Shown in pieces: positions 31,735 through 38,797 of a stretch of 64,000 nucleotides of DNA (positions are counted from its first letter, which is position 1; the number at the start of each line of letters is the position of its first letter). Below the pieces are notes generated by a model that did no database searches, had not been told where the DNA came from, and saw nothing but the letters and a program-made list of their open reading frames with translations. Source of the DNA: Spirosoma oryzae (GTDB taxonomy: Bacteria; Bacteroidota; Bacteroidia; Cytophagales; Spirosomataceae); assembly GCF_003002825.1 (NCBI RefSeq), contig NZ_PVTE01000006.1, forward strand, positions 186,001-250,000, read 5' to 3'. The translations under genes and the position numbers were made by a program.

Positions 31735-31770
31735 AGTATTTTCTAATTTTGGATATATTAGAAAATACTA
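31735..31770. promoter_or_regulatory. Inverted repeat at the start of the Fic gene (possible operator)
   Basis: tagtatttctaa (from 31735) and ttagaaaatacta (31758-31770) form a near-perfect inverted repeat with one bulged base; another ttttcta copy lies just upstream. The right arm touches the ATG. The gene encodes a C-terminal winged helix that could bind it. Confidence 0.5.
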
Positions 31771-33110
31771 TGAAAAAGATAGAGCCGCCACCAGCTTCTC
31801 AGAATATGCGAGAGTGGTACGATAATCTTGACGACGCGGAGCGGCAGTTTATCTTATTGTGGGCTGGTATGACAGGAATACTACGCGATATTGATGATGA
31901 GTATCTCTACTGGGATAAGGTTAAGTATAAAAAGATCGCAGAAATAGAGGGAATACTAGACCACAGAGACCTATGGATGTTGGTGAAGAATAGCCGGCGA
32001 AAGGAATACAAGAAGATTTCTATCGGCAGAGAGACTTTCTATTTTTTACATACAGAACGGCTTCATGAAAATCTTCACCAGTTTGACCTGAATCTGGGCG
32101 GTACGTTGGGCGGGCAGCAACCGATCGGGGAGGCCGATCGGCATCAATATCTACTAGGCTCTATCATGGAAGAGTCGATTGCGTCGAGCCAGATTGAAGG
32201 GGCCATTACATCGCGGGTAGTAGCGAAAGAAATGCTACGAAAGGAGCGTCCGCCACGTACTGTATCCGAGCGTATGATCGTCAACAACTATCAGGCAATT
32301 CAATACATCGATGCCCATAAAAGCGACCGGCTCACGGTAGAAGGCCTTCTGACAGTCCACCGCTTGATGACGGAGCAAACGCTGGACAATGCGGAGGAAG
32401 CCGGACAGTTTCGTCAGCACGATAACATCCACGTTGTCGACGCTATCGATGGAGAAGTCATTCATACGCCCCCGGCATCCAGCAGCATTTCGGTCTTCGC
32501 CACTGAACTATGTCAGTTTTTTAACGACGAATCACCGGACTACTTCCTGCATCCAGTTGTCAAATCAAGCATTATTCACTTCCTCATCGGCTATTTTCAT
32601 CCCTTCACGGACGGGAATGGACGCACAGCCCGTGCATTGTTCTACTGGTATATGCTTCGAAAAGGGTACTGGCTAACGGAGTATCTGTCGATTTCCCGCG
32701 TGATAAAGGACTCGCGGATGCAGTATTATCGTGCTTTCCAGTATGCAGAACTGGACGAGAACGACCTGACTTATTTTGTGCTCTATCAGGTAAAGACGCT
32801 CAGTAAAGCATACGACGAGTTGAAGAACTACCTGGCTCGTAAACAGAAAGAAAAACAGGCTGTGCTGGCTCTGCAACGCACAGAACACTTATCGCCCCGA
32901 CAGGCACAGATTGTCGAGTGGGTTCGGCAGGAGCCAACCACGGTCTTATCCGCAAAGGAAGTAGAGAATCGACTGGGCGTATCGAACCAGACGGCGCGTA
33001 CTGATATTCAGGCGTTGATCAAGGCTGGTTATCTGGAGGAACTAGCCATTAATCGCAAGGAACGAAACTATATACGCGGTCCCAGACTAAGTAATCCAGA
33101 CCACGTCTAG
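31770..33110 (+). CDS. Fic-domain AMP-transferase with C-terminal winged helix
   Basis: 446 residues from the ATG at 31770. N-terminal helical region, then a class II inhibitory motif SSQIEG at about 139-144, then the Fic core with HPFTDGNGR at about 277-285 (catalytic His, Asp, Arg), and a DNA-binding winged helix in the last 65 residues (STVLSAKEVENRLGVSNQTARTDIQALIKAGYLEE-type region; here VLSAKEVENRLGVSNQTART). Family knowledge: transfers AMP to a target Tyr/Thr and is self-inhibited through the Glu. Target unknown. The message may be autoregulated through the palindrome at its start. Neighbours give no toxin-antitoxin partner. Confidence 0.9.
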   Translation: MKKIEPPPASQNMREWYDNLDDAERQFILLWAGMTGILRDIDDEYLYWDKVKYKKIAEIEGILDHRDLWMLVKNSRRKEYKKISIGRETFYFLHTERLHENLHQFDLNLGGTLGGQQPIGEADRHQYLLGSIMEESIASSQIEGAITSRVVAKEMLRKERPPRTVSERMIVNNYQAIQYIDAHKSDRLTVEGLLTVHRLMTEQTLDNAEEAGQFRQHDNIHVVDAIDGEVIHTPPASSSISVFATELCQFFNDESPDYFLHPVVKSSIIHFLIGYFHPFTDGNGRTARALFYWYMLRKGYWLTEYLSISRVIKDSRMQYYRAFQYAELDENDLTYFVLYQVKTLSKAYDELKNYLARKQKEKQAVLALQRTEHLSPRQAQIVEWVRQEPTTVLSAKEVENRLGVSNQTARTDIQALIKAGYLEELAINRKERNYIRGPRLSNPDHV

Positions 33111-33142: not shown

Positions 33143-33619
33143 TTACCCGCCAAACAACTGGCTCCATACGCCCTTGGCCTTCTCCTTGGCTTCTTCGATT
33201 TTGAGTGCCGCTTCTGCTCTGAGTTCGTCAATTCTGACCTGCGCGGCTTCGAGTTGCACGGTGGCTTCGGCGCGCAGTTCCTCGAATTTGTCTTCGGCAG
33301 CATCGGAGAAGGTATCGGCTTTGGCCGCTGCGGCTGAGAACGCCGTTTCGGCCTGTGCCTGCAACTGCGTCAGCGTTTCGGCGGTGGTGGCTTTCGCCTG
33401 CTCAAATTGCTGCGAAGCCTGCGCTTTCAAGCCCTCAATGTCAATGTCTTTGCCGATCTCCTGCGCTTTGGCAACCAATTGATCGCGGAGTTCGTCAAGA
33501 TGCGCGGCTGCGGTGTCGAGGTGCTGGGCCGCTTCGGCTTTGAAGGCGTCGACTTTCTGGGCAGCCGTTGCTTTGGCCGCCAGCATCTGCTTTTCGGCAG
33601 TCTGTTTGGGCGTTTCCAT
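33143..33619 (-). CDS. Alanine-rich amphipathic coiled-coil protein
   Basis: 158 residues, nearly all Ala, Glu, Lys, Gln, Leu and Asp in an 11-/7-residue periodic pattern (for example EAAQHLDTAAAHLDELRDQL, EDKFEELRAEATVQLEAAQV), ending with a small GVWSQLFGG tail. No signal peptide or membrane span. Looks like apolipoprotein- or LEA-like helical proteins that coat membranes or protect proteins under desiccation or stress, by analogy only. Convergent with the Fic gene across a 32-base gap. Confidence 0.8.
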   Translation of the reverse strand: METPKQTAEKQMLAAKATAAQKVDAFKAEAAQHLDTAAAHLDELRDQLVAKAQEIGKDIDIEGLKAQASQQFEQAKATTAETLTQLQAQAETAFSAAAAKADTFSDAAEDKFEELRAEATVQLEAAQVRIDELRAEAALKIEEAKEKAKGVWSQLFGG

Positions 33620-35304: not shown

Positions 35305-35661
35305 TTACGCCTGCGCTGCGTGTAACTTACCCGCCAGGTCCTGCAAGGAAGCAGCCAGTGCCTGCAAGCGAGTCACCATATCGCCTTCGGAGCCAACGTT
35401 CGCGCTGAGTTCGGTAACCTGATGCGCGAGGTCCTGTAGGACTGGTTCGAGGTCGGCCGGCGTTGTACCAGGTTCACTAATCATAGCCCGCAACGTTTCC
35501 AGCGATTGCGCCAGATCCGTGGTATTGATACCCTCGCGCAGAATGTCGATCCATTTCGTCAGGACATCGGTTCCGGCTGCGGCATCGGCAGGAATCGCTT
35601 CAGGATTCAGTACCGCCATCGTCTCATCGAGCAGCTCGGCAAATTCTTCCGGCGTAGTCAT
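35305..35661 (-). CDS. Small helical protein, third member of the tandem paralog family
   Basis: 118 residues, no signal or membrane span, predicted all-alpha, acidic. Shares spacing and motifs with the two upstream genes: a Trp followed by ILREGINTTDLAQSLETLRAMISEP (compare GWLNAL...IATLRDLLKEP and GWLLAL...LSQLRDELQNP), then LEPVLQDLAHQVTELS and a final Leu-rich helix. The most divergent of the three. Starts 12 bases after the stop of the preceding gene. Function unknown. Confidence 0.75.
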   Translation of the reverse strand: MTTPEEFAELLDETMAVLNPEAIPADAAAGTDVLTKWIDILREGINTTDLAQSLETLRAMISEPGTTPADLEPVLQDLAHQVTELSANVGSEGDMVTRLQALAASLQDLAGKLHAAQA

Positions 35662-35673
35662 AAAAAGAGTCGG

Positions 35674-36021
35674 TTAGAGTTGGCTGCTGACATTACGTAG
35701 CACCGTAACCAGTTGCTTGAGCTGACTTTCGACAGCGGGTTCGATCGTCGGCTCGTGCGACAGGGCGGCCGTATGGCTTGCCATGCTCAGCAGCAAATGA
35801 CGAATTTGATCGCCGTCGGGTTTGGGTTCTTTCAGCAGGTCGCGCAGGGTAGCAATCTCCGCCAGAATCCGTTCGGCACCGACGTCGCCCCGCAACGCGT
35901 TCAACCAGCCTTCCAACAGTAGCGTGCCCCGCTCGGCGGTAAGGGTTGTTACATTGCCTTTGCCAAATGCACCCAGCGTGTCGTTCAGCATACGCTGCTC
36001 CAGTGTTGCTTGTCCTTCCAT
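35674..36021 (-). CDS. Small helical protein, second member of the tandem paralog family
   Basis: 115 residues, all-alpha by composition. It aligns end to end with its upstream neighbour: LEQRMLNDTL / LEERMLEDTL, GWLNAL / GWLLAL, LRDLLKEPKPD / LRDELQNPQPD, and a closing LKQLVTVLRN / LESLSKILRQ. The matched positions are mostly Leu and Asp/Glu on a heptad-like pattern, pointing to helix packing or self-association. No catalytic-looking residues. Part of a three-gene minus-strand operon. Confidence 0.78.
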   Translation of the reverse strand: MEGQATLEQRMLNDTLGAFGKGNVTTLTAERGTLLLEGWLNALRGDVGAERILAEIATLRDLLKEPKPDGDQIRHLLLSMASHTAALSHEPTIEPAVESQLKQLVTVLRNVSSQL

Positions 36022-36100
36022 AGTGTAGTGATTTTAAAAAGTAACGCATTGGCCGACTAGGTGATGGGAGAACCACCCGATCGTGTCGGCCAAATTAGAA

Positions 36101-36439
36101 TTAACTGCCGAATTGACGAAGTATTTTCGACAGGCTTTCGAGCTTGCCCGTCCAGGTGCCTTCGGCGTTTGGTCCTTCGGCTGCGGCCTGCGTTTCGTCA
36201 GCCAGGCTGCGTAACAGCCCTTTAACGGTGGCTTCGTCAGGTTGCGGATTTTGCAATTCGTCGCGTAGCTGACTGAGTTGTTCCTCGACCTGCCCAACGT
36301 TTATGTCGGTCTGTAGGGCCAGCAGCCAGCCGTCAATCAGGTTGACGCCCTGAGCGGCTGTCATGTCGGTTGCCTTGCCACCCTGAAACAAGAGGAGCGT
36401 GTCTTCGAGCATGCGCTCTTCCAATATATTCGATCCCAT
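36101..36439 (-). CDS. Small helical protein, first member of the tandem paralog family
   Basis: 112 residues, first gene of the three-gene operon, 79 bases ahead of the second. Motifs: LEERMLEDTLLLFQGGKATDM, the central GWLLALQTDINVGQVEEQL, and LRDELQNPQPDEATVKGLLR. A hairpin at 36449-36493 lies just upstream, shared with the divergent arfB promoter region. I do not recognise a named family; cytoplasmic location is likely because there is no signal. Confidence 0.78.
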   Translation of the reverse strand: MGSNILEERMLEDTLLLFQGGKATDMTAAQGVNLIDGWLLALQTDINVGQVEEQLSQLRDELQNPQPDEATVKGLLRSLADETQAAAEGPNAEGTWTGKLESLSKILRQFGS

Positions 36440-36448
36440 ACCAATATG

Positions 36449-36493
36449 CAGTAAACAGGTGGTTTTGTCTGTTACTAAACCGCCTGTTTACTG
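36449..36493. promoter_or_regulatory. Large hairpin/palindrome between the helical operon and arfB
   Basis: cagtaaacaggtggttt (36449-36465) and aaaccgcctgtttactg (36477-36493) match in 16 of 17 positions with an 11-base loop. It starts 10 bases before the first paralog's ATG on the minus strand. It could be an operator or a leader structure. Confidence 0.5.
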
Positions 36494-36581
36494 GTTTGTT
36501 TTATCAGCCCGGTACATTCAGAAAACGGAGTCTATTGGCCAAACCCGTATGTTTACGGACTAATTGCTGCATCAACGACAC

Positions 36582-36986
36582 ATGAAACTACCTGATCTCA
36601 GCCCGGAAATTCGCTATCAGTTTGCCCGTAGCGGTGGCGCGGGTGGACAGAACGTCAACAAGGTGGCCACGAAGGCCGAACTCCGCTTCGACCTGCAAAA
36701 CTCAACGCTACTAACCGATGAGCAAAAAGCCGTGCTGGCGCAAAAACTGGCGACCAAGCTGACAACCGATGGTGAGTTGGTGCTGACGCATCAGACGGAG
36801 CGTACCCAACTGGCCAATCGCGAGAAAGTCACGACCAAGTTTTACCAGTTGTTGCAGAAAGCGTTTGAGCAACCCAAAGCCCGGCGCGCCACGAAGCCGT
36901 CGAAAGCGGCCGTTGCCGAACGAATCAGCGAAAAGAAGCGCAAGGGCGACGTGAAAGCAACCCGCCGACGCGTCGACCCGGACTGA
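36582..36986 (+). CDS. arfB: Peptidyl-tRNA hydrolase ArfB (ribosome rescue)
   Basis: 134 residues from the ATG at 36582. The release-factor-like motif is FARSGGAGGQNVNKVATKAEL with GGQ at 21-23, which hydrolyses peptidyl-tRNA on stalled ribosomes. The C-terminal 30 residues are strongly basic (ISEKKRKGDVKATRRR), the tail that enters the empty mRNA channel. Single-domain length agrees with ArfB/YaeJ rather than RF1/RF2. Convergent with the DUF1080 gene, two bases apart. Confidence 0.94.
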   Translation: MKLPDLSPEIRYQFARSGGAGGQNVNKVATKAELRFDLQNSTLLTDEQKAVLAQKLATKLTTDGELVLTHQTERTQLANREKVTTKFYQLLQKAFEQPKARRATKPSKAAVAERISEKKRKGDVKATRRRVDPD

Positions 36987-37795: not shown

Positions 37796-38734
37796 CTAAC
37801 TGGCCATCTCGCGAGCAGCCTGCGGATCATTGTATGGACGATCCAGCCCATCCGTCGATTTCTGGTCCGAGCGGTCGCTGCCGTCGATCATGTCCTGCGC
37901 CTGCACGGAACTTTCGTCCATCATCTCGCGGGGCATCTTACGCGACTCGCGCCCTTCCTCGGGTCGTTCGCCGGGCTGGTATTCCTCGTTGTCTTTCGCG
38001 TTTACGTCATACGGATGGGCCGAATCGCCGGTGTCAGGCTGTTCGTCGCCGGGGCCGGTGCCCATACCTTCGCGCTGGGTGTCAGGTGCAGCGTTGCCAG
38101 CCGTGTAAGTCCGGTTACGCTGCTGAAACCCGATCTGGTGCGACCGGTCAGGCTGTTCGGGTTCCTGAATTTCGGGCGTCTCGGGCTTCGGCGTACCCGG
38201 CAGGTCCGGAATTTCCGGACCGGGCGATGGGGGCGTCGGCGGTACGGGCTGACTTGGATCGGGGGGCGTCACCGGACCTGGTGTACCCGGCGTTGGCGGC
38301 ACCATATCGCCCCGAACGACAAACGTGCTGGTTGGCGTACGCTTGTCATCATCTTCTGATGGCAGGCCCGTGTTTACCGTGGCACCAGCGTCAGGATTAC
38401 CCGTAATTTCCGCTTCGGCTTCCGGATTCTCAGGTACGTCGTCTGCGATGATGCCTTCACCCGCGTCTTCGGCGCGCAGGCTGGCATCGGCGTTTTCGTA
38501 GGTCAGCCCCTTGGATTGATCGCCGTTGAAGCCACGCTCGTCGTCGTCGCTGTATCGGTTGCTGAGTTGATCGTCGGCTACGTCGTCTTCGGTATCGCCG
38601 AACGGGGTCAGCTTACCATCAACGAGTTTCACCATATTTGTTTCCCCCTGGTCGGCTCCGAATTTGGTGGCTGCGTTTTCATTCGACACCATATCGGCCT
38701 GTTGTGCGCCGTCGCTGAGTGATGAATTTTCCAT
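37796..38734 (-). CDS. Highly acidic, proline-rich, probably disordered protein
   Basis: 312 residues from the ATG at 38734 (MENSSLSDGAQQADMV). There are three blocks: an Asp/Glu/Asn-rich part (1-130; TEDDVADDQLSNRYSDDDER), a Pro-rich centre (PPTPGTPGPVTPPDPSQPVP), and an Asp/Glu/Gln/Arg-rich end (MDESSVQAQDMIDGSDRSDQ). Few hydrophobic residues, no signal peptide, no Cys. I recognise no domain. Codon use keeps a clean reading frame over more than 900 bases with its own terminator, which supports a real gene. Confidence 0.7.
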   Translation of the reverse strand: MENSSLSDGAQQADMVSNENAATKFGADQGETNMVKLVDGKLTPFGDTEDDVADDQLSNRYSDDDERGFNGDQSKGLTYENADASLRAEDAGEGIIADDVPENPEAEAEITGNPDAGATVNTGLPSEDDDKRTPTSTFVVRGDMVPPTPGTPGPVTPPDPSQPVPPTPPSPGPEIPDLPGTPKPETPEIQEPEQPDRSHQIGFQQRNRTYTAGNAAPDTQREGMGTGPGDEQPDTGDSAHPYDVNAKDNEEYQPGERPEEGRESRKMPREMMDESSVQAQDMIDGSDRSDQKSTDGLDRPYNDPQAAREMAS

Positions 38735-38797
38735 GACTACTGGGTTTAATGTTGTCCCTAAAAAACCCACTGATACGGAAAAGGTTTTGCCGGTAAC

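Follow-up and report, generated by a model that had tools for sequence, protein, structure and literature searches.

A candidate family of stress-induced helical proteins encoded by an ordered gene array in Spirosomaceae

In this study, a stretch of 64,000 nucleotides of Spirosoma oryzae DNA (the window) was analyzed, in which three small genes on the minus strand close a gene array of conserved order. Judged from gene order and sequence comparison, these genes, named B1, B2, and C1 after the orthogroups into which each of them falls, are the remnant of an array with as many as ten paralogues. The best reading is that they belong to a new family of stress-induced helical proteins: acidic proteins of about 115 residues predicted to be helical bundles, likely driven by a stress sigma factor and probably forming a hetero-oligomeric protective set. 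We give this reading as a whole a probability of roughly 40%. For its parts, control of the array by an alternative sigma factor of the general-stress type is probable, hetero-oligomer formation by the paralogues has about even odds, and protection as the activity is somewhat more tentative. The stress-regulation part builds on the conservation of an upstream motif, on shared targets, and on the pairing of a family member with the UV endonuclease UvdE, while hetero-oligomeric protection is suggested by acidity, bundle fold, ordered paralogues, a tail on one of them, and a fusion. Most simply, the family consists of cytosolic stress proteins.

B1 (36101..36439, 112 aa) is the first of the three genes and is followed by B2 (35674..36021, 115 aa) and C1 (35305..35661, 118 aa), the last gene of the array; all three open reading frames show coding-like codon use. 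In pairwise alignments, B1 and B2 share 38% identity (E 3e-24), B2 and C1 match weakly with 24% identity (E 4e-6), and B1 and C1 give no match. A profile from which all C sequences had been left out recovered C1 at 5e-19, together with all 32 C members, and corresponding profiles likewise recovered the B group (65) and the D and E groups (26). As a profile without C members finds C1, the three genes are homologous well beyond chance. Thereby, the claim of an earlier note on this DNA that three related small genes lie in tandem on one strand could be confirmed, as could its remark that the third is more divergent. The motifs RML.DTL, GWL.AL, and LRD.L..P.PD, which it had described as shared by all three, are intact in B1 and B2 only; C1 is altered at all three places, where it carries ELLDETM, KWIDIL, and LRAMISEPGTTP. 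Successive duplication at this locus, also proposed there, is unsupported, since the three genes, as remnant of an array, belong to separate old orthogroups common to other genera. For B1, 74 homologues were found, and those with a named organism come from Spirosoma or Fibrisoma except for one entry from a Hymenobacter metagenome-assembled genome.

Searches of Pfam, NCBIfam, and PHROGs gave nothing above cut-off for B1, B2, or C1, and for these libraries the earlier description as a family of unknown function holds. Identity with a known family was rejected also after including PADLOC and sequence searches of the PDB: all matches were weak and scattered, many of them to coiled-coil or designed helical proteins, and a diverse alignment of 46 members gave only such matches in Pfam and PADLOC. 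A profile search of 5.8 billion proteins returned 132 matches; among the 120 matches listed, those with a named organism belong to Spirosoma, Fibrisoma, and Larkinella, plus one soil metagenome entry. AlphaFold2 predicts five helices for B2 (model with mean pLDDT 78.8 and pTM 0.68), so the helical character suggested earlier is borne out in the predicted structure of the single protein, and fold comparison of this model revealed likeness to generic helical bundles only. The domains are strongly acidic, with median pI values of 4.1–5.1, and nearly without cysteine. Hydrophilins are defined by a Gly content >6% and a hydrophilicity index >1; with a median hydrophilicity of 0.09–0.56 the domains fall below this and were rejected as hydrophilins.

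The array itself was analyzed in genomes of the same family (Spirosomaceae), 200 of which were searched with B2, resulting in a match in 56. Together with the window, 40 fetched loci make up a set of 41 in which genes were called throughout. An iterated profile detected 206 family proteins in these loci, and a tree of the 206 domains of sufficient length was cut into 15 orthogroups, with 29 copies of B1, 22 of B2, and 28 of C1. The order of the array is fixed as E1-D1-(H1)-A2-A1-A3-B3-B1-B2-C1; in some genera, members are replaced or supplemented by F, G, I, B4, and C2. Within the 41 loci, 525 gene pairs are concordant with this order and 0 discordant; as the order was derived from the same loci, the fairer figure is that 0 of 65 orthogroup pairs were found in both orders. 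At least three members lie together in 34 of the 41 loci, and the longest array comprises ten (L055). B1-B2-C1 form the end of this order, which holds across Spirosomaceae. In several genomes the array locus is reduced to one to three genes. The window retains B1-B2-C1 only, and the D1 and A1 genes of this genome are found together on a different contig (L043). At order level, the family was found in 67 of 291 genomes and 13 of 116 genera, and at class level in 4 of 295 genomes, all four of the same order; since at most 15 candidates were scored per genome in both searches, distant members may be missed in these counts.

Upstream of the first array gene, a promoter-like motif, RAACAWT-N14-GTTY, was detected, typically ending 25–75 nt before the start codon. 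In most sites, C or G precedes GTT, giving the core RAAC-N16-SGTTY. The motif was spotted by eye in the same upstream regions that were later scored. Exact matches within 200 nt of the first gene occur in 22 of the 41 loci, compared to 0.05 expected. For scoring, a position weight matrix (PWM) was trained on 19 hand-picked sites, leaving out the matching loci L026 and L058, whose sites are far or irregular, and the duplicates L036 and L048; leave-one-out scoring restored every exact match. Thereby, p ≤ 0.01, the lowest attainable value, was reached in 24 of 41 loci and p ≤ 0.05 in 34, the seven loci missing the latter being L027, L031, L034, L037, L049, L053, and L060. Related sites, which were outside the training of the PWM, are also present before A3 within many arrays.

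In the window, the promoter-like site AAACAAACCAGTAAACAGGCGGTTT (36477..36501, minus strand; PWM score 15.5) is located 37 nt before the start codon of B1. It does not fit RAACAWT-N14-GTTY exactly and is weaker than the sites of full arrays (leave-one-out p about 0.02). For a looser pattern, no enrichment was seen in the window, with 12 matches found, 6.3 expected, and 8 of 100 shuffles reaching as many. The B1 site is overlapped by an inverted repeat of 20 nt (36449..36493; 90% complementary, 5-nt gap) between B1 and the divergent gene of an RF-1-domain protein. L044 and L045 have sequence similar to this repeat upstream of their B1 genes. A second promoter-like site, AAACCTTTTCCGTATCAGTGGGTTT (38763..38787, minus strand; PWM score 10.1), lies 28 nt before the gene of an acidic hydrophilic protein; it scores well below the array sites. 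Comparable sites precede this gene in six further loci, and the sites of all seven were outside the training.

To the genome of the window as a whole, 26 exact motif matches could be assigned, compared to 8 for the reversed pattern. Genes starting 18–55 nt after the motif include the D1-A1 array as well as genes for CsbD, a DUF2383 protein, a DNA photolyase, an HhH-GPD protein, and several small proteins that are hydrophilic or unnamed. Roughly half of the 26 matches seem fortuitous, falling within long frames or having no gene close by. A near match is also located 36 nt upstream of a Transgly_assoc protein gene close to D1-A1. Among CsbD orthologues, 11 of 25 have an exact match, while DUF2383 was rejected as a steady member of the candidate regulon, with none of the 26 main copies and a single one of the 4 second copies examined having an exact match. 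In four relatives, a stricter pattern gave 13 matches and its reversed control 6; the 13 include three genes of interest, namely two array starts and a CsbD gene, and several without a nearby gene look like chance.

Family members were also found in a second family of bacteria (f3), at a guess Hymenobacteraceae, where most of them occur singly and some loci have pairs or triplets. One f3 orthogroup directly follows the gene of UvdE in 17 of 17 genomes examined, out of 35 matching f3 genomes. The pair was first seen in two of these (L077 and L080); for the other 15 genomes, 20 regions with candidate members were chosen, of which 15, one per genome, hold UvdE. In two cases, the identity of UvdE was confirmed by Pfam. 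Both genes are on the same strand, with a gap of 16–73 nt in 16 of the 17 genomes; in the last one, the rule for start codons chose a wrong frame. The motif AACTTTT-N14-GTATA, of fixed spacing, occurs 30–47 nt upstream of another f3 orthogroup, and all 10 matches in 632 kb lie before this orthogroup, which makes the motif a candidate for recognition by a further alternative sigma factor. The loci concerned are L105–L110, L112, L120, L075, and L078. In a third f3 orthogroup, a YAACA...GGGTT motif precedes 5 genes, with 2 more matches elsewhere. The motif of the Spirosomaceae arrays was rejected as a general feature of members elsewhere, since PWM p ≤ 0.05 was reached in 5 of 59 cases, including members from g32, a genus of the same family that we guess to be Dyadobacter-like. 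Lone members of g32 (L082, L083, L085, L086, and L087) lie beside genes for transaldolase (L082, L083, and L086) or fatty-acid desaturase (L086 and L087), and some are near response regulators; these neighborhoods are suggestive of stress islands.

The UvdE pair also suggests the main rival explanation, in which the proteins would assist DNA repair as accessory factors instead of being general protectants, each member binding damaged DNA or a repair enzyme. This role would fit the one-strand adjacency of UvdE and member and the motif upstream of the photolyase and HhH-GPD genes in the genome of the window. We consider it unlikely, as only a single f3 orthogroup was seen beside UvdE and other members adjoin unrelated genes, the low median pI of the domains (4.1–5.1) is unusual for DNA binding, and this role leaves unexplained why there are as many as ten paralogues.

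Besides the domain common to the family, all 28 copies of A1 have an extra, probably disordered tail rich in Gly, Ser, Thr, and Asp (median length 117 aa, Gly content 20%); 11 of the 28 tails are hydrophilins by the definition given above. Outside Spirosomaceae, a lone member from a different family of the order (L095:6340-7050) also carries a long, hydrophilic tail at its C terminus, which seems either to have been acquired separately or to mark a very diverged A1 type. In 7 of 35 genomes, E and D form a single fusion protein of about 240 residues, always encoded away from the array; in 4 other genomes, none of which has the fusion, they are separate and adjacent. In one of these four, the gene table showed one long frame, in which stops part E from D. 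Fusion and adjacency are compatible with subunits sitting side by side and are no proof of contacts; the hetero-oligomer suggested in the earlier note would agree with the fusion. The model of the fusion protein is poor (pLDDT 61, pTM 0.42), and no subunit interface is readable from it.

These features, i.e., one tailed member, the E-D fusion, and the bundle-type fold, together with the invariant order of up to ten paralogues, would also agree with an ordered cytoplasmic polymer or shell resembling R-bodies, in which the paralogues represent distinct positions and A1 a surface-exposed or linker subunit. Such an obligate multi-position structure is distinctly improbable, since it is hard to reconcile with array loci shrunken to one to three genes in several genomes; moreover, singletons are common in other families, and the three window proteins do not match RebB. 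The variable gene number and the losses at the array locus could, on the other hand, be taken as signs of ordinary dispensable paralogues that stem from an old tandem duplication and persist by drift, their promoters being conserved without a shared complex or specific function. This is highly improbable, as the orthogroups keep distinct sequences, their order, and promoter-like motifs of fixed spacing across genera, a pattern which probably implies selection.

Several neighboring genes were considered as further components. The acidic hydrophilic protein (37796..38734, minus strand; 312 aa, pI 4.05, 9.3% Gly) has no Pfam match, is a hydrophilin by the same definition, and belongs to a family present in 13 of 41 loci; its gene is a candidate for co-regulation with the array. 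The divergent RF-1-domain gene (ArfB-like; 36582..36986, plus strand; PF00472), which has relatives in 32 of 41 loci, is a boundary marker outside the system. At 33143-33619, an Ala-rich coiled-coil protein of 158 aa is encoded, with an apolipoprotein Pfam match below cut-off and relatives in 14 of 41 loci, and at 31749-33110 a Fic protein with a C-terminal HTH. The earlier note had proposed to check the conservation of gene order with the Fic, coiled-coil, and acidic proteins: this order is partly conserved for the latter two, and it is not conserved for Fic, which was rejected as a partner of the array, being near it in 2 of 41 loci only. Genes for SDR (near the array in 18 of 41 loci) and metallo-beta-lactamase-like proteins (19 of 41) were also rejected as partners and are read as synteny. 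Tandem small genes and the Fic gene nearby might suggest an array for defense, immunity, or toxin-antitoxin function, with the small proteins as a bank of antidotes or adaptors, yet this and a mobile origin can hardly be credited in view of the order kept across genera, largely syntenic flanks, the rarity of Fic, weak and scattered PADLOC matches, and searches that found no match for B2 in plasmid records and none for B1 in phage records.

In the preferred reading, i.e., a stress-induced, hetero-oligomeric protective set, the motif would be an ECF-type promoter with an AAC-type −35 and a GTT-type −10 region, which would fire under stress conditions, e.g., UV, desiccation, or stationary phase. 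The paralogues would then assemble together, with array neighbors as neighbors in the complex, the Gly/Ser-rich tail of A1 could form a hydrated, disordered outer part, and the assembly would shield proteins or DNA. In a fuller form, the stress sigma factor would switch on an ordered cassette of at most ten homologous, non-interchangeable helical subunits, which would co-assemble position by position into a cytoplasmic protective body with disordered tails, a new kind of bacterial stress assembly, the UvdE-coupled member being an offshoot for repair; this fuller version is unlikely. The preferred reading gives a family unmatched in the libraries searched a testable place in a stress regulon of Cytophagales, a group with members reported as radiation-tolerant (PMC11354047). 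Arrays of as many as ten paralogues in an invariant order are unusual, and such an array makes it possible to test for subunit-specific assembly, and the UvdE pair offers a direct genetic test. Also, the motif suggests that Bacteroidota use a promoter logic resembling the general stress response of alphaproteobacteria; a literature search found no description of such promoter logic in Bacteroidota.

Among known systems, the Reb proteins of R-bodies are several small paralogues of about 100 aa encoded in one cluster, a feature shared by the family described here. It differs from them by its context, which suggests stress regulation, and by sequence, as the RebB model of Pfam did not match the three proteins up to E 1 and was absent among the 25 of 77 families listed for the 46 members. 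WXG100 proteins such as EsxA are similar in having about 100 aa, helices, and an invariant Trp (Trp39 in 46 of 46 members), and a weak EsxA profile match was obtained (E 0.005). In contrast to the two helices of their hairpins, the B2 model has five, and designed bundles outscore EsxA. Membership was rejected, since the W-x-G between two helices is mostly missing (Gly at Trp+2 in 2 of 46 members), and WXG100 Pfam models did not match the three proteins up to E 1. With CsbD-like stress proteins and hydrophilins, the family shares small size, hydrophilicity, and a promoter-like motif, as well as Gly-rich, hydrophilic tails in the case of A1. It differs in lacking a sequence match, with CsbD (PF05532) not matching the three proteins up to E 1 and absent among the 25 of 77 families listed for the 46 members, and in its domains, which are folded bundles in the model and fall outside the hydrophilin definition. 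The EcfG response of alphaproteobacteria, for which PMC7083833 gives the promoter GGAAC-N16-CGTT and csbD as a direct target, differs in phylum, in the outer bases of both boxes (mostly RAAC-N16-SGTT in the array sites), and in having the EcfG partner NepR, whose model (PF18557) gave no match in the genome of the window and a control match in Caulobacter. The likeness lies in the putative AAC-type −35 and GTT-type −10 regions of the array sites, in the same spacing of 16 nt (GAAC-N16-SGTT in most of these sites), and in csbD, which is part of both gene sets.
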